This document shows positions 1,356-10,924 of a DNA stretch of 12,875 bases, in pieces (the stretch's first letter is position 1; each line of letters opens with the position of its first letter). Location of the stretch: assembly GCA_028287205.1 (NCBI GenBank), contig JAQBQC010000097.1, forward strand, positions 1 through 12,875, read 5' to 3'. The notes under the pieces were generated by a model that worked only from the letters and a program-made list of their open reading frames with translations, had not been told where the DNA came from and did not search any database. Made by a program: the position numbers and the translations under genes. Origin of the DNA: Gemmatimonadota bacterium (GTDB taxonomy: Bacteria; Gemmatimonadota; Gemmatimonadetes; Gemmatimonadales; Gemmatimonadaceae).

Positions 1356-2444
1356 CTAGTCGTCCGCAGCGAGCATTCGGTCCAGAGCGTCGCGCGCCGT
1401 ATCGACGTCGAGCGAATCAACGGATGATCCGGTCCAGTATGCGACCTCCGATGGTGTACGCCACGAGCCCCACTGGTCCTCCCCGTGCTCGAGCAGGAGC
1501 ACTGTCGGAATCCTGAACGCGGACGCGGCGTGCGTGATGCTCGTGTTCGAGGTGACGACGCGCTCGCTCGTACCAACGAGAGCGAGCGCGTCGCGAAGAC
1601 GCGGTGCGCTGAGCGCGACCGCTCCCGAGGCGAGCGCGACTCGCTGGACGGAGACTCGCTCGGACTCGACGCCTATCACGGCCACGGTCGCGCACGGCTG
1701 CCGCGCCTTGAGATGAGCAACGAGAGCAATCCAGCGCTCGTCGGGCCAGCGGCGAACGCGATCACCAGCCGACAGATTCACCAACCATCGATTGCCAGTG
1801 GTCGAAGGGCCGCGAGTGGCAGTCGCCCAGGAGCGCTCCGCCCACGCCCGTTCTTCGTTCGTCAGAAAGATCTCGGGACGAAAATCCGCTGTCGCGAGGT
1901 CGACACCGAATGGTGCTGCCAACGCCGCGCTTCCCTCGACCATGTGTGTGGTCGTGCGGTCGAACCGCGGAACGCAGATGTTGAACACGAGATGATGATT
2001 TCCGCCGCCCACGCCCACTCGGTACGGAGCCCGCGACATCATGGTGAGCGTCGGGCTGCGAATGAACGACGCGCCGCGCGTGATCTTCCCGTCGATGATT
2101 ACGTCGTAGCGCGATCGGCGAAGCACGGATGCGAGTCCAATGGCATCGCCGTATCGCTCCCCGATCGTGTGGACGCGGCGCACGTACGGATTGTGATCGA
2201 GCACCGGTGCCGCCTTTCCCGTCGTCAGCACATCCAGTGCGATCGTGGGGTGCGAGCGCGCGATCGCGCGAAGAACGCCCGTTGCGAGGATCATGTCGCC
2301 GATGCCCTGCGCACGGAGATACAGCACCGACCACGTGCGAGCATCCCAGTCTGGAACGGATGCGGTCCGCGCCCCAGCTGAAAGGGCGCCGATCGCCCGC
2401 ATCCATTCGCGCCGCCAGGCGCGCTCCAACCCACCGAGATCCAA
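1356..2444 (-). CDS. Glycosyltransferase family 9 (ADP-heptose:LPS heptosyltransferase-like)
   Basis: The 362-residue protein has the GT9 layout. A Rossmann-like N-terminal half opens with VLYLRAQGIGDMILATG (about residues 40-56), the G-x-G-D acceptor-side loop. The C-terminal nucleotide-sugar half contains LVNLSAGDRVRRWPDERW (221-238) and a loop TSNTSITHAASAFRIPT (288-304), where heptosyltransferases usually have D-T-G-x-x-H. The family transfers sugars, classically L-glycero-D-manno-heptose, to the lipopolysaccharide inner core at the cytoplasmic face. The exact substrate cannot be read here. Length is typical. The longest reading uses TTG at 2444, since an in-frame TAA lies just upstream; ATG at 2402 (residue 15) is an alternative and neither has a convincing Shine-Dalgarno sequence. 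It lies 131 bp downstream of the ClC gene on the same strand and converges on ada. No other envelope glycan genes are visible, so it is an isolated GT9. Confidence 0.8.
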   Translation of the reverse strand: MDLGGLERAWRREWMRAIGALSAGARTASVPDWDARTWSVLYLRAQGIGDMILATGVLRAIARSHPTIALDVLTTGKAAPVLDHNPYVRRVHTIGERYGDAIGLASVLRRSRYDVIIDGKITRGASFIRSPTLTMMSRAPYRVGVGGGNHHLVFNICVPRFDRTTTHMVEGSAALAAPFGVDLATADFRPEIFLTNEERAWAERSWATATRGPSTTGNRWLVNLSAGDRVRRWPDERWIALVAHLKARQPCATVAVIGVESERVSVQRVALASGAVALSAPRLRDALALVGTSERVVTSNTSITHAASAFRIPTVLLLEHGEDQWGSWRTPSEVAYWTGSSVDSLDVDTARDALDRMLAADD

Positions 2445-2575
2445 TGCGACTTACGGCTCGAGGAATGTGTCGACAGCCCGCGCAACTTGCGCGCGTTCTC
2501 CTTTCAACGCGATAACATTAGTCGAGAGGCGAGACAGAGGTTCCCAGGTCGGGAGTCTGGCGCGCCTCACGGGGC

Positions 2576-4459
2576 TCAGGACGCGAGCCTTCTCCCGCGT
2601 TGTACCCTGCTGGCGGCGTCCAGGCGCGGCGCGTGCGCCGAGAGCAGATCGCTGCGCGAGATGATCCCGACGAGCAGATGCGGCTCCTCGCGCTCGACCA
2701 CCGGGAGGCGCCCAACGCCTTCCGCGACCATCTGATCGGCGGCATCGCGCAACGTGCTGTCCTCGTACACGACCACGGGCGCGCGTCTGATCGTCTGCGC
2801 GACCGTTTGCATCGGATCACACGCAGGATCGAGAAGATCGCGGCGCGTGAGCACCCCAACCACGACGCCGTTGCCCGCGAGCACCGGAAAGCCCTGGTGC
2901 GTCGCGCTCGTGCCGCCCCGCGCGATCCACTCGCGCGCCTGTGCGATCGTGTCCGCGGCCCGAAGCGTGACGACTTCGCGCGTCGCAACATCGCGCACGA
3001 GAATCTGACCCAGATAGTCCACGGCGTAGTCCGTGCGCAGGCTCGCACCACGACGCGCGAGCTTCTCGGTCATGATCGAATGCCTGTTGAGCAGCAGCGC
3101 GATCAGATACGACGCCGTGCACCCGGCGAGAAGCGGAAGCAGCCCGAACGGCTGCCGCGTCGTCTCGAACGCAAAGACCACGGAGGTGAGCAGCGCGTGC
3201 GATGCGCCCGCGAAGATCGCCGCCATGCCGACGAGCCCGGCGACGTGCGCATCGATGCCGAGCCACGGCGCGAACGCGGCGCACTGTTCGCCGATCCATG
3301 CACCGATTCCCGCACCGATCGTGAACAGCGGTGCGAGCGTACCGCCCGACGTGCCGCTTCCGAGATACACCGCCCACGAGATCAGCTTGAGCACCACGAG
3401 CGCGAGCAGCGCCCGTCCCACGATGGCGCCCGAGATGAGGTCGGTGATGTTGTCATAGCCAACGCCGAGCGTGCGCGGGGAGATCACACCGATCCCGCCC
3501 ACGACGAGTGCGCCGAGTGCGGGCCACCACATCCAGTGAATGTGAAACCGCTCCCCGAATTTCTCGAATGCCTCTTCGATGCCGTAGGTGAAGCGGGTGA
3601 TGCCGGCTGCGCACGCGCCGATGAGCATCCCCAGCACGGCGTACGCGACCAGCGCCAACCCGGTCGGCTGCGCGAGCGGTGCGATCTCGAAGATGGGCGC
3701 AGTACCGCTGAAAGCGACGCGAACGGCCGTCGCGACTGCTGCGGCCAGCGCGACGGGAATGAGCGACCGCGGGCGGTACTCGAACAGCAACAGCTCCACA
3801 GCCAGCAGCACGGCACTCACCGGGCTGCCAAAGGTGGCCGCCATTCCAGCGGCGGCGCCCGCTGCCAGGAGTGTCTTGCGCTCATCGGCGGTGATGTGCA
3901 CGAACTGCCCGGTAAGCGAGCCGAGCGCGCCTCCAGTTGCGATGATGGGCCCTTCGGCGCCAAACGGTCCGCCGGTACCGATCGCGATCGCGGCGGAGAT
4001 GGGCTTGAGGAAGAGCACGCGCGCCGGAATCCGGCTCTCGCCGTAGAGCACGCGCTCCATCACCTCCGGAATTCCATGACCGCGAATCGCAGCGGAGCCG
4101 TATCGGGCCATCAGCCCGACGATGATCGCACCGCCCACCGGGATGGCGATGATGAGCAGCGGATTGTGCGTGCCGAAGCGCGGCGCTGCAAAGTCGGTGG
4201 AGAGTCGGCCGTAAAACGTGGCGTTGGTCACCAAGCCGATCAGGCGGATCAACAGCTGCGCCGCGAGGCCGGCACCGAGGGCGACGACGATCGCGCCGGC
4301 GCAGATGCCAATGATGCGTTTGTCGACGGGAGCGTATTCGGGCGGTGCGCGAAACGCAGCAGACGACGTACCTGCATTCGCCGCCGCATCCTCGAGCCCA
4401 GGTGCGACGGGAACGGCGCCGGGCTCGATGGGTAACTCTCTGTCTGAGGGGTTCGTCAC
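2576..4459 (-). CDS. ClC-family chloride channel or Cl-/H+ antiporter with C-terminal CBS pair
   Basis: This 627-residue inner-membrane protein has the ClC selectivity signatures: GHGIP at 127-131 (G-S-G-I-P equivalent), GAEGP at 167-171 with the gating glutamate Glu169, and GGTLAP at 372-377 (G-x-F-x-P equivalent, with Leu for Phe). Multiple hydrophobic helices run from about residue 48 to 457. Two CBS domains follow, about 484-543 and 549-608. CBS pairs in ClC proteins bind adenine nucleotides and modulate gating. The translated frame starts at GTG 4459 after a weak AAGG-like sequence; no ATG or GTG lies further upstream in frame. It is transcribed away from the GntR-family gene across a 226-bp gap. 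By eye the E. coli internal proton glutamate (Glu203) position is Leu223, so the transport mode is uncertain. The Pro/Ala-rich first 45 residues are a poorly conserved cytoplasmic leader. Confidence 0.93.
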   Translation of the reverse strand: MTNPSDRELPIEPGAVPVAPGLEDAAANAGTSSAAFRAPPEYAPVDKRIIGICAGAIVVALGAGLAAQLLIRLIGLVTNATFYGRLSTDFAAPRFGTHNPLLIIAIPVGGAIIVGLMARYGSAAIRGHGIPEVMERVLYGESRIPARVLFLKPISAAIAIGTGGPFGAEGPIIATGGALGSLTGQFVHITADERKTLLAAGAAAGMAATFGSPVSAVLLAVELLLFEYRPRSLIPVALAAAVATAVRVAFSGTAPIFEIAPLAQPTGLALVAYAVLGMLIGACAAGITRFTYGIEEAFEKFGERFHIHWMWWPALGALVVGGIGVISPRTLGVGYDNITDLISGAIVGRALLALVVLKLISWAVYLGSGTSGGTLAPLFTIGAGIGAWIGEQCAAFAPWLGIDAHVAGLVGMAAIFAGASHALLTSVVFAFETTRQPFGLLPLLAGCTASYLIALLLNRHSIMTEKLARRGASLRTDYAVDYLGQILVRDVATREVVTLRAADTIAQAREWIARGGTSATHQGFPVLAGNGVVVGVLTRRDLLDPACDPMQTVAQTIRRAPVVVYEDSTLRDAADQMVAEGVGRLPVVEREEPHLLVGIISRSDLLSAHAPRLDAASRVQRGRRLAS

Positions 4460-4685
4460 GCGGGCCGAGCCTTTGCCTTCATGCGCATCGGACGCGCTGT
4501 CAGAAATCGTTTCATCACAAATTGTCAGTGCGTCGAATACAGGGGTCGAGTAGTCATCGTGGTCACCGCATGCGCCCCTGTCGGGGCACCACTGCGAATA
4601 GTATCATTGGACACTACGTGAGCGAACGTCGTGCTTGGCTCACACTCCCGGGCCTGCCCTCCCACTCCTTTCAATCGCGCGCCTG
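4460..4685. promoter_or_regulatory. Divergent intergenic region between the ClC and GntR-family genes
   Basis: This gap must hold the promoters of both divergent genes. It is more AT-rich than its surroundings in two places: around 4500-4530 and at 4598-4616, where TAGTATCATTGGACACTA occurs. The TAGTAT at about 4600 is a possible -10 box for the plus-strand gene, and the flanking TAGT/ACTA ends form a short inverted repeat that could be an operator. A short perfect hairpin, GCCCC-TGTC-GGGGC, lies at 4574-4587. No clear -35 boxes are seen on either strand. FCD-type regulators often bind the promoter next to their own gene, so autoregulation is a reasonable inference. Confidence 0.35.
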
Positions 4686-5510
4686 ATGAGTGTACGGCCT
4701 CTAGCTGCTGACCCTCTGAATCCCACGACGCGCCAGGCCCCGGTCTCACCGCGCGCGAAATCCGCCCGGCGCGCCGAGGGGATGCGGGTGTATCGCGCGC
4801 TCCGCGATGCGATCAACGAGGGCCGCCTCGCCCCGGACACGCGGCTGATCGAGGATCAACTCGCCCTTCAGTTCCGCGTGAGCCGCACGCCGATCCGGGA
4901 TGCCATTCAGCGGCTCCAGCAGGAAGGCTACGTCGTCACGCCGGACGGATTTCGGCACGCGCGGCCCGTCGTGGCGCCTCTGGTCGAGAGCGATGCGGAC
5001 GAGCTGTGCTCGCTCGTTGCGCTGCACGAGGGCCACGCCGCCGCGGCAGCCGCGCGACTGCCAACGGACCGCCGGCTCGAGCTGGTCGCCGAGCTCGTGT
5101 CGCTCAACGAGAGCATGCGTCGTGAAGGTGCGTCGCCCACTGCGTCGCGCGATCGGCTGCGCGACATCGACGCGGCGTTCCATCACGCGTGCACGCATGC
5201 CGCGGCGGGACCGCGCCTGCTCACGCTGCTCGACGTGATCAAGCCGCAGGCGGAGCGCTACAACCGCGTGTACGCGAACGAGATTCTCCCGAAGCGCATT
5301 GCCGACGCGGCCATCGAGCACGACGCGATCATTCGCGCGCTTCGCGCCGGCGATCCGGAATCCGCGCGCCGTGCGGTCGAGACGAACTATGGGCACGGCA
5401 CCGCGGAGCTCACGCACGTGATCGATGCACCGGAGGCGAGCGACCAGTCGTCGCGCTCTCGGCGTGCTCCTTCGCTGACGCTCGCGAAGAAGCGGAGCGA
5501 CGGCCGCTAG
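4686..5510 (+). CDS. GntR-family transcriptional regulator, FCD (FadR-like) subfamily
   Basis: From ATG 4686 the protein has 274 residues. A winged helix-turn-helix occupies about residues 34-93, with the GntR signature LIEDQLALQFRVSRTPIRDA, where the SRTPIRDA recognition helix is typical. The rest is an all-helical FCD ligand domain with Asp162, His166, His212 and His237 in the positions of the usual metal-binding set, so it probably binds a metal plus a carboxylate-type effector. A basic tail of about 25 residues ends the protein. A longer reading from TTG 4635 adds 17 residues without domain content, so ATG 4686 is preferred although no Shine-Dalgarno sequence is evident. FCD regulators usually repress genes for sugar-acid, amino-acid or fatty-acid use, but no such pathway lies adjacent. 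The divergent ClC gene is the nearest possible target. It converges on the SLOG-domain gene with 14 bp between stop codons. Confidence 0.9.
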   Translation: MSVRPLAADPLNPTTRQAPVSPRAKSARRAEGMRVYRALRDAINEGRLAPDTRLIEDQLALQFRVSRTPIRDAIQRLQQEGYVVTPDGFRHARPVVAPLVESDADELCSLVALHEGHAAAAAARLPTDRRLELVAELVSLNESMRREGASPTASRDRLRDIDAAFHHACTHAAAGPRLLTLLDVIKPQAERYNRVYANEILPKRIADAAIEHDAIIRALRAGDPESARRAVETNYGHGTAELTHVIDAPEASDQSSRSRRAPSLTLAKKRSDGR

Positions 5511-5541
5511 CCCCACAGCGCGGCTCAGAGCTCGGCCGTCG
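5498..5541. terminator. Candidate bidirectional terminator hairpin between convergent stops
   Basis: A perfect 9-bp inverted repeat, CGACGGCCG at 5498-5506 and CGGCCGTCG at 5533-5541, encloses both convergent stop codons. A second stem, AGCC at 5509-5512 with GGCT at 5522-5525, nests inside, giving an imperfect two-step hairpin. There is no T-tract on either side, so it is not a textbook intrinsic terminator. Its position between two convergent genes only 14 bp apart suggests a shared terminator or a 3'-end protecting structure. Confidence 0.4.
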
Positions 5542-7564
5542 GCAGCTCGATGGGGCGCGCGCGATGGAGCAGCAGCCAGTCCGCATGCTCCGCCAGCGCC
5601 TCGCAGCCGAGATCCAGGAAAATCCGGTCGGCGTCTGCGGAGGTGGCGGTCGTGCCGGCACGCTCGAGTGCCTCGTCCGCAGCCTGGAACAGCTCCTTCA
5701 TCCGATCGTACTGCTTCTGATGCTCGCCGAACGCGCGCACGTTCGCGTACGCGTGCGCGAAGGTGCCGACGAGTGCGGTGATGCCGATCGCGGCAAGCAT
5801 CCAGTCGAACGGCGCGTCACCGATCGCGAGGCGCGGGAGCTGACTGGCGATGATGGGGCCACCGAAGACGAGCGTCGCGTAGAAGGCAAAGGCCACGCAG
5901 GCGCTGAGCAGTCCGAGTGCGACCATGTCGCGAAGCGAGCTCTCGGTTGGCGACTCGGCCTCTCCCATCGCATTCACCACCTCGTGGGCACAGTGCGCGG
6001 CGAGCACCAGCGCGGCGAGCACTGCGATTGCGATGAACGCCAGTTGCCCCTCGGCGCTGTCCCACAGCCACTTGATGGTCGCGCCGAGGCTGAGGAGCAC
6101 CAGCGCGCTGCCGATGGTACGCTGCCGGCGGCGCCGCAGCCCGTCGCGGGATCCCGCGCGATCGTAGTAGGCTCGCTGGTCCTTCACCCACAGCCGCTGC
6201 ACGGCGGCGACGTCGCCTGCGGCGAGCGGCGCAGCGCGGAGCGCTGAGACGCGCAGCACATCGCGAATCCATCGAAGCTCGCTTCGCTGCTTGCGCAGGT
6301 AGTAGTCGGAGACCGCGCGCGCGGAGCCCTCGAGTCGCCAGAAGAACTGCACGCGAAGTCCCTCGGCGATCGCGCGATAGTCCTGAAAGCGATCCTGGCT
6401 CCGCCGCCGGCGCGTGCGCAGATACGCGAGGTCGGCGATCGTGAGCAGAAGGAGATAGCCTGCGAGACACAGGCGCCGGGCCTCGTCCGTGATCGCGAGA
6501 TTGCGGAGCACGAGCGAGATGGTTGCGATCGCGATCATCGCGAAGAGCACGAGCATCGTGCGGTAGATGCTCTTCTGGTGCTCGATGGCGAGCGAGTCGG
6601 CCATCGCGAAGGTCGCGCGAAGCGTGGCGAGGAGCGTCGGCGCGCGCGCGTCGCGAGAGGATGGCGTGGTTTGGCCGGCCGTCAGCATCGCGTCCGCTTT
6701 CGCCACGCGGCCGCTGTGACGCCGGCGATACGCGGCGCCCTCGCGATTCAGCTCGTTGCGATGCTGCAGCGTGGACAGATTCATGCGCACGAATCGCTCG
6801 CGCATGCGGGCGGAAGCATGGTACGGCGCGGGCACGAGCCAATCGGACGCGGTGGTGTCCGCGGGCGGCGCACCGCTCGCGCGGCTCACGGCGATGTGAT
6901 AGACAAGCCCCGTCTGCGGCGCATCGAGCGGCGCATCGGCAATGCGAAACGGAGCGGGAGCGGCGGCGAACGCGGCCTGGATGCTAGCATCCGCATCGAG
7001 TCGTCCGGTTCGGCGGAACGAAACGATCTGCGCGCTGCCGCCGGTTCCCCGCGACGGTGCGCCGTCCCAGAGCGCGATGAGCACGTCGCTGTTGCGCGCG
7101 ACGTACGATCCGGCAAGCAGATACTGGACGTCGCGCGCCTCGCCGGGCGCATCGGCGGCCGAGCTGAGCTTCGGCGCCACGATGCACTGCTCCACGCGCG
7201 GATCGGCGAGGAGCGCGCGGAACTCATCGCGCGATTGCGAATCGGCGAAGTCGCGCTCGTAACTCTCCTGCGCGAGCGGCAGCACCGCAATGATGCGAAC
7301 ACCTTCTGCGAGCGCGAAACGCGTCACGAGTCGGTCCGCTCCCTCCGCGAGCGATGTGAGCAACACGATCGGGGAGTCGGGCGCCTCGCGCTTCAGCCGC
7401 GCGAGCACGAGTCGGGTTCTGGCCCCGATCTCATCCTGGTCGGCAGAGCGAAGCGAGCGATGCCCGGTCACGCCGACCATGATGGGAATGCGCGCATCGG
7501 GCTCGCCCGCGAACATGGACGGTGCATCGAGTGTGGAACGAGATGTGGCAGTCGGGTCTGACAT
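5525..7564 (-). CDS. SLOG-like nucleotide-sensor domain fused to a six-segment membrane region
   Basis: From ATG 7564 the protein has 679 residues. The first 230 form a Rossmann-like SLOG-type domain: MVGVTGHRSL (29-38) as the phosphate loop, SLAEGADRLV (71-80), VLPLAQESYERDF (94-106), and SDVLIALWDG (159-168) followed by a GGS loop. SLOG domains bind nucleotides or nucleotide-derived signals. Six hydrophobic segments follow at about 337-353, 364-382, 483-501, 508-528, 547-570 and 586-606. The stretch after the first pair (RFQDYRAIAEGLRVQFFWRL, 392-411) recalls the SLATT two-helix effectors that accompany SLOG domains. A charged helical tail contains KQYDRMKELFQAADEALE. The frame stays open to GTG 7759, with ATGs at 7603 and 7681, but the extra residues look like translated intergenic DNA and no start has a Shine-Dalgarno sequence. 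It is divergent from the TIR gene, which suggests a two-gene signalling or immune module. Function is inferred, not established. Confidence 0.75.
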   Translation of the reverse strand: MSDPTATSRSTLDAPSMFAGEPDARIPIMVGVTGHRSLRSADQDEIGARTRLVLARLKREAPDSPIVLLTSLAEGADRLVTRFALAEGVRIIAVLPLAQESYERDFADSQSRDEFRALLADPRVEQCIVAPKLSSAADAPGEARDVQYLLAGSYVARNSDVLIALWDGAPSRGTGGSAQIVSFRRTGRLDADASIQAAFAAAPAPFRIADAPLDAPQTGLVYHIAVSRASGAPPADTTASDWLVPAPYHASARMRERFVRMNLSTLQHRNELNREGAAYRRRHSGRVAKADAMLTAGQTTPSSRDARAPTLLATLRATFAMADSLAIEHQKSIYRTMLVLFAMIAIATISLVLRNLAITDEARRLCLAGYLLLLTIADLAYLRTRRRRSQDRFQDYRAIAEGLRVQFFWRLEGSARAVSDYYLRKQRSELRWIRDVLRVSALRAAPLAAGDVAAVQRLWVKDQRAYYDRAGSRDGLRRRRQRTIGSALVLLSLGATIKWLWDSAEGQLAFIAIAVLAALVLAAHCAHEVVNAMGEAESPTESSLRDMVALGLLSACVAFAFYATLVFGGPIIASQLPRLAIGDAPFDWMLAAIGITALVGTFAHAYANVRAFGEHQKQYDRMKELFQAADEALERAGTTATSADADRIFLDLGCEALAEHADWLLLHRARPIELPTAEL

Positions 7565-7743
7565 GCGCGTGCGCGGCTCGCGGTGTTGGTCGGCGGAGAT
7601 CATGTTGCCGAAGGGGCCGTCGCGCCAGAGCCGGCCATGCGCGTGCGCGTGCTTGCGGGCGCCGCCAGTGGTTCCTAGCATAGCAGGAGCGCCGAACGAC
7701 GCGTCGCCGGAATGGTGCTCCCTCCGGCAACTCGGAGTGGCCG
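7562..7743. promoter_or_regulatory. Divergent control region between the SLOG-TM and TIR genes
   Basis: About 180 bp separate the preferred starts. A perfect 14-bp direct repeat, CATGCGCGTGCGCG, occurs at 7562-7575, overlapping the SLOG ATG, and at 7636-7649. Near 7676-7685 the more AT-rich TAGCATAGCA contains TATGCT on the minus strand (7677-7682), a possible -10 box placing transcription start near 7670. On the plus strand TAGCAT (7676-7681) could serve the TIR gene. No convincing -35 elements are visible. The shared, nearly overlapping -10 candidates would let one regulator control both genes. Confidence 0.35.
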
Positions 7744-8988
7744 ATGCCGTACGCTGCACGACGAGGGAGAATGCCGGACGCGCCAGCCGCGGGACCCATG
7801 ATCTTCATCAGCTACCGACGTGACGACAGCAGTGGTCACGTCGGCAGACTGTACGACGCGTTGAGCGGGCACTTCGGACGCAAGCGACTGTTCTTCGACA
7901 TCGATCACATCGCGCCCGGCCAGGATTTCGTGCAGGTGCTCGAGGATTCGTTGAATCGATCGTCCGTGATGATCGTGGTGATCGGCAAGCGCTGGGGCGG
8001 CAGCGGAAAGATCGGCGCGCGGCGCATCGACGATCCGGGCGACTTCGTGCGGCTCGAGGTGGCGTCGGGGCTCAGACGGCCGGAGCTCAAGGTCATTCCC
8101 GCACTGATTCAGGGTGCGAAGATGCCGGGACCCGCGGCGCTGGCGGATGAGCTCAAGGATCTCTCCCGTCGTAACGCGATCGAGCTGAGTGACCTGCGCT
8201 GGCGCGAGGACGTCGATCGATTGATCGCGAGTCTCGAGCGCGACATGGCGAGCGGAGTTGCGCATCACGGCGCCGCGGACCTCGTGCGAAAGGCGCGAGA
8301 GATCACGCACGCACCCGCGCTCGCGACGGGCAATTGGCCGCGCTGGGGAATGATCGGCGCAGCGGTGATCGTGCTTGGCTTCGGTGCGCGCGCGATCTTC
8401 CGGCGTCCGGCCGACGCCGCGAAGAACCCCGCCGCTGCGACCGTCGCGACACGAGACGCGGGGATCATCATCGGCGTGCCGTCGGACGATCCGCACGCGA
8501 TGCCCTCGCATCTCGCGGAGGCGGCGCGCAGCGCACTCGCATCGGGAAAGAAGTGGCGCCCGGACGCAGTGCTCACCCAGATCGTCGCAGCGCCCGACTC
8601 CACGGGAGATGCTGCTGCCTATCGCGTGCAGTTCGGCTTTCGCTCTCCGACCGATGGCGCGGGACTCGCCCTGACCGCCCGTAAATCGGGAGACCCGATT
8701 TCGGAGCGACTGCCCGCGATCCCGATGACGTCCATACACGCGCTGCCCGCGTCGTTCATCGATCTGCCCGCCGCGGTCGACTCGGCGCGGCGCTTCGGGA
8801 TGTTCGGCTCATTGCGCGAAGGCAAGCTGGCCAGCATCACGAGCCGCGGCGCTCCGCGCACTGCGTGGCGACTGCGGAGCGCGAGCGCCGATGCGCGCAT
8901 GTACTTCATCGATGCGACGACCGGCGCGAACATCCCTCCCCCACCTCGCGCAAAGCTCGTCGACAAGGTGAAGGGACTCTTTCACTGA
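7744..8988 (+). CDS. TIR-domain membrane protein with C-terminal PepSY-like domain
   Basis: From ATG 7744, with GGAG six bases upstream, the protein has 414 residues; ATG 7771 (behind GAGGGAGA) and ATG 7798 are alternatives. Residues 19-165 are a bacterial TIR domain: FISYRRDDSSGHVGRLYDAL (21-40), FFDIDHIAPGQDF (50-62), VVIGKRW (78-84), FVRLEVASGL (101-110) and the end motif NAIELSDLRW. Glu105 in FVRLEV sits where NAD-cleaving TIRs such as SARM1 have their catalytic Glu, so NADase or cyclic-ADP-ribose-forming activity is plausible. One hydrophobic segment at about 202-219 would anchor the protein. Residues 220-414 have no family I can name with certainty, but AWRLRSASADARMYFIDATTG near the end resembles the PepSY pattern of paired strands ending in D-A-T-T-G. 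The divergent SLOG-TM gene is the likely partner. The tail's extracytoplasmic location is an inference. Confidence 0.85.
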   Translation: MPYAARRGRMPDAPAAGPMIFISYRRDDSSGHVGRLYDALSGHFGRKRLFFDIDHIAPGQDFVQVLEDSLNRSSVMIVVIGKRWGGSGKIGARRIDDPGDFVRLEVASGLRRPELKVIPALIQGAKMPGPAALADELKDLSRRNAIELSDLRWREDVDRLIASLERDMASGVAHHGAADLVRKAREITHAPALATGNWPRWGMIGAAVIVLGFGARAIFRRPADAAKNPAAATVATRDAGIIIGVPSDDPHAMPSHLAEAARSALASGKKWRPDAVLTQIVAAPDSTGDAAAYRVQFGFRSPTDGAGLALTARKSGDPISERLPAIPMTSIHALPASFIDLPAAVDSARRFGMFGSLREGKLASITSRGAPRTAWRLRSASADARMYFIDATTGANIPPPPRAKLVDKVKGLFH

Positions 8989-9008
8989 GCGTGCGGCACC
9001 GTCTCAGT
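8984..9008. terminator. Candidate bidirectional terminator between the TIR and lipoprotein genes
   Basis: The inverted repeat ACTGAG (8984-8989) / CTCAGT (9003-9008) encloses an inner GTG-CGG-CAC stem at 8991-8999. It contains the TGA of the TIR gene and the start of the stop codon (TCA on this strand) of the convergent lipoprotein gene. On the plus strand a short TTT follows, a weak intrinsic-terminator-like feature. The placement mirrors the repeat at the 5510/5525 convergent junction. Confidence 0.4.
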
Positions 9009-9744
9009 TTCGCCTGAGCAAGGCCTGCAGCCACTCGCTGCTCACACGCGATGTCAACGCGCCGAACGGATCCTGGAATCGCTCTCCGGCGAACGTCGTG
9101 GTCGTAAATGACAGATGCGTGAGTGCCGGGTCGACACCGGTGGTCGACGGAAAGCCGAACGTGAGCGCCGCGCTGTACGTGGCCAGCAGACATGTCGCCT
9201 GGCTCGCGGTGGCGATCACGGGATTGGTGAGCCCCGTGGGCGGCGCCGGGCAGCTTGCACCGACGGCCGTCTGTGTGATGCTTCCGGAGCTCGAGCTTGC
9301 GTTCACGACGACCGTGTCGTTCGACACGAGCGACGCGCCGCCGAAGGAGCCATTGGCGAGCAGCACCGCCACGACCAGCGTGTGCGCGTCCGCGTCACGA
9401 TACGCGAGAAAGATGCGGCCGGAGTCGGACGGCGTACCGCTGTTCGTCATCACTTCCTCGAACACGAAGCCCTTCCAGCTTTCCGCCCCAGATGCGGTGG
9501 TCATCGTGATATTGCTTGGCGTGGCGCCGAATGCTGCCGGGAGCTCGAGGTCCGAGAGCGCAATCGCGCGGAAGTCGTAGTTCGTGTCCGTCGCGCTGAG
9601 CGCCTTCGCCGCCACGTACAGCGAATCGAAATGCACCGCGAGATTCGGGGTGACTTTCGGACTCGTGCTGTCGCCCCCGCACGCGGCAGTGGTTGCAAGG
9701 ACGGCGATTGCTGCGGCGAGAACAAAGCGTGGGGCGAGTTGCAT
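9004..9744 (-). CDS. Putative lipoprotein of unknown family (paralogue A)
   Basis: From ATG 9744 this is a 246-residue exported protein. A hydrophobic signal segment (residues 5-20) ends in TAAC with the lipidated Cys at 22, followed by GGDST, a typical tether-like start. The -3 residue is Thr rather than the usual Leu/Val. A further in-frame ATG at 9780 would add 12 residues before the signal, so the inner ATG is preferred; GGAG lies 10 nt ahead of it. The mature part is rich in Ser, Thr, Ala and Val and probably beta-structured. Landmarks are LELPAAFGATPSNITMTTA (67-85), AYRDADAHT (114-122) and Cys165/Cys185, a C-X19-C pair that could form a disulfide. The same landmarks occur in the next gene on this strand, so the two are paralogues. 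I do not recognise a named domain. It lies 15 bp from the convergent TIR gene. Confidence 0.75.
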   Translation of the reverse strand: MQLAPRFVLAAAIAVLATTAACGGDSTSPKVTPNLAVHFDSLYVAAKALSATDTNYDFRAIALSDLELPAAFGATPSNITMTTASGAESWKGFVFEEVMTNSGTPSDSGRIFLAYRDADAHTLVVAVLLANGSFGGASLVSNDTVVVNASSSSGSITQTAVGASCPAPPTGLTNPVIATASQATCLLATYSAALTFGFPSTTGVDPALTHLSFTTTTFAGERFQDPFGALTSRVSSEWLQALLRRN

Positions 9745-10094
9745 GTGCGAAGGACTCCGGAGTGCGTGTGTGATTGGCATGGCTCCAGCGCTGGCCGCGA
9801 TGGGAATTGCGAACGCAGCAAGGGCGCTGCGTGACCGTGTGCTGAACCCGCTGAAAGAGCACTAAGCGATTTCTGTTCCCGCGAGATTGCGTGTTGGGCG
9901 GGGGTGACTGGGGTCACACGATACCGCGCGCTCGGCAGAGCACGGATGTTCCGCAATGCGATGAAGCTCCGTCGATCGTGAGCGATCGACGGAGCTTCGA
10001 AGGAACCGTACTAAAATCCGAGGCGATCTCGAATCAAGCCCTGCCGCGCTGGTGCGTGAGCTCTTCCCGCTCCAGCCTGGTCAGGTCACGAAGC
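9745..10094. other. 350-bp intergenic region between the two lipoprotein genes
   Basis: No convincing gene is seen here. It contains the strong hairpin at 9963-9998 (listed separately) and a small inverted repeat GTGAC-TGGG-GTCAC at 9904-9917, about 160 bp upstream of the lipoprotein A start, which could be an operator. More AT-rich patches lie around 9858-9875 and 10008-10035. The promoter of lipoprotein A should lie between the hairpin and 9744, but no clear -35/-10 pair stands out. Confidence 0.5.
9963..9998. terminator. Perfect 16-bp-stem hairpin downstream of lipoprotein B
   Basis: GAAGCTCCGTCGATCG (9963-9978) and its exact reverse complement (9983-9998) are separated by a TGAG loop. 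This is by far the strongest hairpin noticed in the window. It lies about 97 nt beyond the stop codon of the upstream minus-strand lipoprotein gene and before the next gene, the position expected of a terminator. No T-tract follows on either strand, so it may act as a T-less terminator or an RNA-stabilising 3' structure. Confidence 0.6.
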
Positions 10095-10844
10095 TCAGTG
10101 ACTCGTCATGTTGCTTGCCGAGCGAAGCATCGCCTTCACGCGCCGTATGGTCGCGCCCGACGCCTGGTCAACCGCTCGTACGCCGTTGACCGTTGCATTC
10201 GTGAACGTCACCGTCGTGAGCGCGGCGTCCATGCCGGGCGTCGTGGGCGATGTCAGCGACAGACTGGTCCGGAACTTCGCGAGATTGCATTGCGAAACCG
10301 CGATCGTGCCAAGCTGCGGATTGTGGAGCGAGCCGGAGGGGGTCGCGCATGTCGTGCTCGTGGACGTCAGCGAGGTGGAACCGGCTCCCTGTGAGGGGTT
10401 CACGGAGATCGTGTCACCGGTGATGATACCTCCGTCCTGTGCCGTTCCCGTGCTGTCGAAGAACACGGCGATCGCGGTGTGCGCATCCGCGTCTCTGAAC
10501 GCCAGCAGAATGAACGACGAGTCGGTGTTGCTCGAGCCCGGCGGAAAGACATCGAGCAGCTCGTACGCCTTCCACTGCTCGACGCCATTTGCGGTGGTGA
10601 CGCTCACGGTGGACGGCACTGCGCCGAGCGCGGCGGGGAGCTCGATCAGCGTGGAAAGGAAGCTGCGCACGCCATAGGCGGAATTGGTATCGCTCTGGGC
10701 GTTCGCGCGAATCGCGATGGAGTCGAAGTGCGCCGCCACTTGTGCGGCGGTCTGTTGGCCCGGGCCGGTGCTGTCACTGCACGCGGCAGCGGTCACGACC
10801 ACGAGGAGAGATGCGGCGATGCGAAGACGTGCGGGTGAGCGCAT
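10095..10844 (-). CDS. Putative lipoprotein of unknown family (paralogue B)
   Basis: From ATG 10844 this is a 249-residue protein with signal segment LRIAASLLVVVTAAAC, lipidated Cys at 22 and mature start SDSTGPG. The Cys position is identical to paralogue A. In-frame starts at 10892 and 10919 would add up to 25 residues ahead of the signal and are less likely. Shared landmarks with A are VAAHFDS (36-42), IELPAALGAVPSTVSVTTA (68-86), LAFRDADAHT (114-123) and Cys166/Cys186 with the same C-X19-C spacing, although most of the sequence has diverged. This points to an old tandem duplication. Function is unknown; an envelope-located structural or binding role is a guess. It follows cysK on the same strand with 97 bp between them, so read-through is possible but not obvious. 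Confidence 0.75.
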   Translation of the reverse strand: MRSPARLRIAASLLVVVTAAACSDSTGPGQQTAAQVAAHFDSIAIRANAQSDTNSAYGVRSFLSTLIELPAALGAVPSTVSVTTANGVEQWKAYELLDVFPPGSSNTDSSFILLAFRDADAHTAIAVFFDSTGTAQDGGIITGDTISVNPSQGAGSTSLTSTSTTCATPSGSLHNPQLGTIAVSQCNLAKFRTSLSLTSPTTPGMDAALTTVTFTNATVNGVRAVDQASGATIRRVKAMLRSASNMTSH

Positions 10845-10924
10845 GCGGGGTCTTGCTCCGAAAAATGGGTTGCACAAGAATCTCTTTACCATTGACGGTG
10901 CCGCTGTACCTCGCGTCACGAACC

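Follow-up and report, generated by a model that had tools for sequence, protein, structure and literature searches.

What might a bacterium do with a membrane-anchored TIR protein whose gene stands head to head with that of a protein joining a nucleotide-sensor fold to a set of membrane helices? This question is raised by a contig of a Gemmatimonadota bacterium of the Gemmatimonadaceae (JAQBQC010000097.1) that was analysed over its whole length of 12,875 bp and is called the window here; the genome to which it belongs (G000) is incomplete (68% complete). The original prediction, made from the letters of this DNA, was that the TIR protein produces a nucleotide signal, that a SLOG domain in the partner senses it, and that the membrane part of the partner acts as an immune effector. 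The head-to-head arrangement was confirmed: the two genes are flanked on one side by the gene of a GntR-type regulator (4635-5510) and on the other by a lipoprotein-like gene (9004-9780), and 206 bp separate the conserved starts of the SLOG-membrane gene (7564) and the TIR gene (7771). The pair probably works as a nucleotide-signalling module of two components: a messenger made by the TIR protein from nicotinamide adenine dinucleotide (NAD+) would bind the SLOG domain of the partner, whereupon the membrane helices would open or cluster as a pore. The genes and their parts are:

5525-7564, minus strand: SLOG-membrane (SLOG-SLATT-like) gene, 679 amino acids from the conserved start, a start common to the G002 and G004 relatives
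6845-7489, minus strand: SLOG (YpsA-like) domain, residues 26-240, with the motifs GVTGHR, LAEGADRL and ALWDG...GG(T/S)
5561-6643, minus strand: helical membrane region of the SLOG-membrane protein, residues 308-668, two units
7771-8988, plus strand: TIR-transmembrane-PepSY-like gene, 405 amino acids from the conserved start
7792-8250, plus strand: TIR domain, residues 8-160
8056-8058, plus strand: Glu96, the predicted catalytic glutamate (Glu105 in the original prediction), aligned with SARM1 Glu642
8338-8397, plus strand: transmembrane segment of the TIR protein, residues 190-209
8479-8940, plus strand: presumed extracytoplasmic part of the TIR protein, residues 237-390, with a predicted tandem PepSY-like fold

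The TIR protein and its SLOG-membrane partner

In case of the TIR protein, the family TIR_2 (PF13676) is matched with 45 bits, above the cut-off of 28, a TIR fold is predicted by the model, and a single hydrophobic segment follows the TIR domain. Glu96 is invariant in 100 of 100 alignment rows and takes the SARM1 position, and on this point the original prediction was not refuted; the domain may have NADase or cyclase activity. The tandem PepSY-like fold that is predicted beyond the membrane segment had no place in the earlier account.

Does the TIR domain need to be an enzyme at all? It could instead be a scaffold that assembles at the membrane and opens the SLOG protein by direct contact, with no diffusible messenger involved. 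Both proteins are predicted in a membrane, so that direct contact is feasible, and adaptor roles of TIR domains are known. However, adaptor TIRs usually lose the glutamate, which here is kept in every row, and the TIRs that accompany SLOG genes elsewhere come from several subgroups, as the window-TIR profile missed those of G129, G130, G156 and G302, which were detected by Pfam or by a broader profile. A shared small molecule fits this diversity of partners better than a shared interface, and we therefore regard the scaffold mechanism as unlikely.

In case of the SLOG-membrane protein, the predicted structure has a SLOG (Rossmann-like) fold in the N-terminal domain, which agrees with what had been claimed for it; ThsA was not among the rows of this structure comparison, which is no evidence for a differing fold. 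The membrane region has about six segments in total. Its first unit of two transmembrane segments (residues 308-411) is SLATT_3/DUF4231-like and contains a DYRA(L/I/V)AEGLRV stretch, and the second unit comprises about four segments. The window protein itself reaches 17.1 bits with YAcAr (cut-off 28.2) and 23.9 bits with the NCBIfam SLATT_3 (E 3.4e-5, cut-off 45). Among 48 rows, searched at E 1e-3, YAcAr is found in 7, DUF4231 in 12, SLATT_3 in 9 and SLATT_1 in 2.

Co-occurrence of TIR and SLOG genes

Two congeners, G002 and G004, also carry the pair head to head. In a sample of 298 genomes from the phylum, 16 places in 14 genomes are marked by the SLOG profile (A1, E 1e-20), and a TIR_2 gene lies within 5 kb at 10 of these 16 places, in seven genera of three families, where 0.062 would be expected (computed from rounded genome sizes). 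The co-occurrence on which the original prediction depended is therefore far above chance. TIR_2 genes of any kind occur in 73 of the 298 genomes; the window-TIR profile has matches in 9 genomes, with full-length relatives in 6, and each of these six, the window included, lies no more than about 1.5 kb from a SLOG match. Four more pairs (G050, G053, G055, G176) were detected only with a broader SLOG profile.

The neighbourhoods were also approached from the TIR side by scanning 106 loci around TIR_2 places, the window excluded and L110 (G004) included, although G004 is outside the 298-genome sample. A TIR open reading frame (ORF) was found in 100 of them (none in L196, L204, L213, L222, L227 and L229), and 17 of the 100 also have a SLOG ORF. 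A hydrophobic segment follows the TIR domain in 16 of these 17 loci versus 11 of the 83 TIR loci without SLOG (P 1e-10) at a hydropathy threshold of 1.35, which was picked after the data were seen, and in 12 of 17 versus 10 of 83 (P 2e-6) at a threshold of 1.6. Two of the 17, L183 and L199, belong to other TIR clusters; the remaining 15 and the window make up 16 pair loci in eight genera. Nine of these are divergent, six are tandem with the SLOG gene first, and one is tandem with the TIR gene first and two genes in between. The divergent orientation, which had been listed as a distinguishing trait, was ruled out as a defining feature by the six tandem loci.

A wider survey extends the association beyond the genus. 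From 79 loci, five without a called SLOG gene were removed (L033, L042, L049, L053, L056), and among the 74 SLOG-membrane loci left, 29 have a TIR gene within two genes, two of them in this genus and the others elsewhere. At distance 1-2, TIR genes make up 33 of 260 genes, and at a distance of at least 4 they make up 11 of 332 (P 2e-5), as counted with a TIR profile that was iterated on the sequences of those very loci. Could the two genes nevertheless be neighbours by chance, with unrelated functions? Some SLOG-membrane genes do stand without a nearby TIR gene, as would then be expected, but the ten places in three families contradict such a view, as do the pair loci in both orientations and the absence of the pair as a unit from a congener (see below), and chance can hardly be maintained as an explanation.

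Several further arrangements were seen. In six gammaproteobacterial loci, mostly of Lysobacterales/Xanthomonadales (L051, L057, L059, L064, L077, L078), a TIR gene (about 700-780 amino acids, a hydrophobic segment following the TIR domain), a small gene (about 90-200 amino acids) and a SLOG-membrane gene form a recurring row; in L051, the sole one scanned, the TIR protein has TPR repeats and the small protein matches no Pfam family. In Eremiobacterota (L015 6243-8171, L022 1880-3571), a gene with a C-terminal TIR domain and several hydrophobic segments is divergent from a SLOG-membrane gene. L183 (G010, 3339-6594) has three short TIR-like ORFs (130-157 amino acids) around a 183-amino-acid SLOG ORF, without membrane segments, and apparently is a different TIR-SLOG arrangement. 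When the longest contigs of the first 55 SLOG clusters were compared by eye with those of the TIR clusters, 13 lengths were found in both.

Exchanged membrane modules and phospholipase neighbours

Is the membrane part always of the SLATT kind? In G078 (L127 4576-8285), the gene of an 862-amino-acid TrkA_N-RyR-SLOG protein stands head to head with a 364-amino-acid TIR-transmembrane gene. The RyR match has 26.7 bits, slightly below the cut-off of 27.4, and the C-terminal SLOG match, obtained with our own profile, spans residues 630-711 only. By its predicted domains, this locus is a channel-type variant of the TIR-SLOG relay. In G130 (L124 5895-10204), the genes of a patatin phospholipase, a free-standing YpsA-like SLOG protein (YAcAr and YpsA matches, each below cut-off), an 8xMP membrane protein and a TIR-transmembrane-Sel1 protein follow in a row, which on the same kind of evidence is a split version of the module; a separate PADLOC scan gave no match for the 8xMP gene. 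As far as domain prediction tells, a TIR domain, a SLOG domain and a membrane module are what is constant across the variant loci. Since RCK-RyR or 8xMP can take the place of SLATT next to TIR and SLOG, the output common to these loci would seem to be membrane conductance, and such loci strengthen the sequence from TIR to nucleotide to SLOG to membrane. Loci of other phyla (L016, L027, L032) have TrkA_N-RyR channel-like genes adjoining SLOG-SLATT genes and contain TIR genes as well.

These variants also bear on the idea that the SLOG domain is a LOG-like N-glycosidase that clears the TIR product, in which case the membrane protein would be an off-switch and not an effector. Enzymatic SLOG clades exist, according to PMC9503650. 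However, SLOG is here fused to or encoded beside three kinds of membrane module, none of which a soluble clean-up enzyme needs. Moreover, the motif in the alignment rows is GG(T/S) with no conserved GTxxE after it, unlike the PGGxGTxxE of LOG proteins. A role of the SLOG domain in messenger removal thus appears improbable, and that of a sensor is preferred.

Three of the 16 pair loci (G040, G115, G130) have a patatin phospholipase gene 5' of the SLOG gene and on its strand. These genes were matched as phospholipase effectors by PADLOC. The pair loci have 77 neighbours at a distance of up to three genes, and the PADLOC run at E 1e-5 covered 68 of them; the other nine are a mis-called 643-amino-acid frame at the window end and short or contig-edge ORFs. 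In L112 (14849-16012) and L113 (5444-6610), the patatin gene, a PADLOC phospholipase effector, stands immediately upstream of SLOG-membrane and TIR-transmembrane genes with the same orientation.

Cassette behaviour and the question of immunity

The congener G001 (93% complete) has collinear flanks, as by blastn L139 3494-7614 corresponds to window 1369-5510 and L139 7630-8368 to window 9038-9773, and exactly the pair is missing in between. No SLOG homologue was detected in G001 or in G003 (68% complete). The missing segment and a block in the gap between the two genes are:

5511-9037, no strand: segment missing in G001, which carries 15 bp instead (blastn, L139 against the window)
7653-7681, no strand: promoter-like block TTGCGG-N17-TAGCAT, hexamers and spacing identical in 3 of 3 genus members

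The block may be a promoter. The lipoprotein-like gene at 9004-9780 was considered as a third component and ruled out, since G001 retains it (75% identity) without the pair. It and a second lipoprotein-like gene of the window (10095-10919) share 36% identity with each other and have no Pfam match, and relatives of both are present in G001.

Is the module then a defence system? The same wiring could serve in envelope stress or ion homeostasis: the PepSY-like part would read a cue from the periplasm, and a SLOG-gated channel would reversibly tune ion flow. Such a non-immune circuit would suit the housekeeping-type neighbours and the collinear context in the genus, the varied C-terminal parts of the partner TIR proteins (TPR, Sel1, DUF3859-like, PepSY-like) and the TrkA_N-RyR channel-like variants. 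It is at odds with the patchy presence of full-length TIR relatives, with the clean presence or absence as a cassette and with the patatin phospholipases, all of which resemble conflict systems, and defence is the best-known role of TIRs in bacteria. We consider the non-immune circuit possible but tend to doubt it, and the patchy, cassette-like distribution together with the phospholipase neighbours makes an immune role of the signalling module plausible.

Relation to known systems

Which known systems come closest? SLATT is predicted to be an ADP-ribose-regulated membrane effector, some SLOG domains are treated as sensors of cyclic ADP-ribose, and TIR genes of Firmicutes phages adjoin SLATT genes with two transmembrane segments (PMC9503650), and SLATT is regarded as a predicted nucleotide-responsive pore former (PMC7159879). 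The TIR/SLOG/SLATT conflict systems described by Burroughs and Aravind combine a TIR producer of an ADP-ribose derivative, a SLOG sensor and a SLATT membrane effector, which is the wiring predicted for the pair with its SLATT-like membrane region, and adjacent TIR and SLOG(-SLATT) genes were indeed found across genomes. Unlike in those systems, the SLOG domain and the membrane part of about six segments are here in one protein, and the TIR protein is anchored in the membrane, with the PepSY-like part beyond the segment.

Thoeris type I is a SIR2-SLOG system and type II a system with a transmembrane-macro effector, the latter proposed to act via nucleotide-driven clustering of its transmembrane domains (PMC12948488 and PMC11204291 for the types, PMC11204291 for the clustering). 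In type I (ThsB TIR and ThsA SIR2-SLOG), a TIR gene likewise adjoins the gene of a SLOG-containing effector, but here membrane helices take the place of the NADase; neither a SIR2 match nor a STALD profile match was obtained for the protein, the model has SLOG and helices, and membership was ruled out. Type II (ThsB TIR and ThsA transmembrane-macro) also combines a TIR signal with a membrane effector; here, in contrast, the sensor fold is SLOG with no macro match, there are more membrane segments and the TIR is membrane-anchored, which rules out this type as well. Type III was ruled out by an NCBIfam ThcB4 score of 32.6 bits versus a cut-off of 220, and a cyclic-oligonucleotide-based antiphage signalling system (CBASS) by the lack of any CD-NTase match in the 68 neighbours scanned with PADLOC. 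SARM1 and TRPM2 of animals are also counted among the closest known systems.

The literature searched, so far as its text was available, did not describe a TIR protein that is anchored in the membrane, has a PepSY-like part and is paired with a SLOG-membrane protein, nor was any paper found that combines TIR domain, PepSY and bacteria. The pair appears to be a variant of the largely predicted TIR/SLOG/SLATT kind.

Proposed mechanism

How could the module function? To judge from the PepSY-like part on the far side of the membrane segment, the module would be triggered by an envelope cue outside the cell, such as the adsorption of a phage, its injection or another kind of damage to the envelope. 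The membrane-anchored TIR would then convert NAD+ to an ADP-ribose-type messenger, the messenger would bind to the SLOG domain of the partner protein, and the partner would open (or cluster) its membrane helices as a pore, which would lead to a loss of membrane potential and, ultimately, to growth arrest or abortive infection.

Several observations weigh against this mechanism or against its parts. The model of the TIR protein is only moderate overall (pLDDT 78, pTM 0.44), and Pfam gives no significant PepSY match in this protein. The SLOG and SLATT matches of the window protein stay under the curated Pfam and NCBIfam cut-offs, and the assignment therefore relies on the predicted model and on relatives. 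A Foldseek search of the SLOG-membrane model against PDB gave no match at E 0.001, and the SLOG-membrane profile gave only meaningless matches with PDB sequences (E about 2). No TIR gene lies within 5 kb at 6 of the 16 SLOG places, nor within two genes in 45 of the 74 loci of the wider survey. The window pair sits among housekeeping-type genes, outside any defence island, and apart from the three phospholipases, the 68 neighbours gave PADLOC one match each to mad2 (E 4.7e-16) and to mad8 (E 7.5e-8). Of the original prediction, the signalling logic is retained as the best reading; its immune part, in view of these neighbours and the few PADLOC matches, is conjectural, and so is a cyclic ADP-ribose isomer as the TIR product.

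A more far-reaching version, which we put forward tentatively and with more doubt than confidence, is that the two genes would be a bacterial equivalent of the SARM1-TRPM2 axis, with an envelope receptor that has a SARM1-like TIR inside, a cytosolic NAD-derived messenger and a depolarising SLOG-gated channel, and with three kinds of channel (SLATT, RCK-RyR, 8xMP) behind one relay.

Implications

Thoeris, the best-described bacterial TIR signalling, senses infection in the cytosol and ends in NAD depletion or membrane clustering. Here, the TIR protein has the build of a transmembrane receptor, and in the partner protein a nucleotide-sensor fold is joined directly to a membrane domain of several segments. 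If the proposed mechanism is true, the pair would offer a compact system for asking which TIR products are read by SLOG-membrane (SLATT) effectors, and for asking whether bacteria sense invaders externally via TIR receptors, like the Toll-like receptors of animals.

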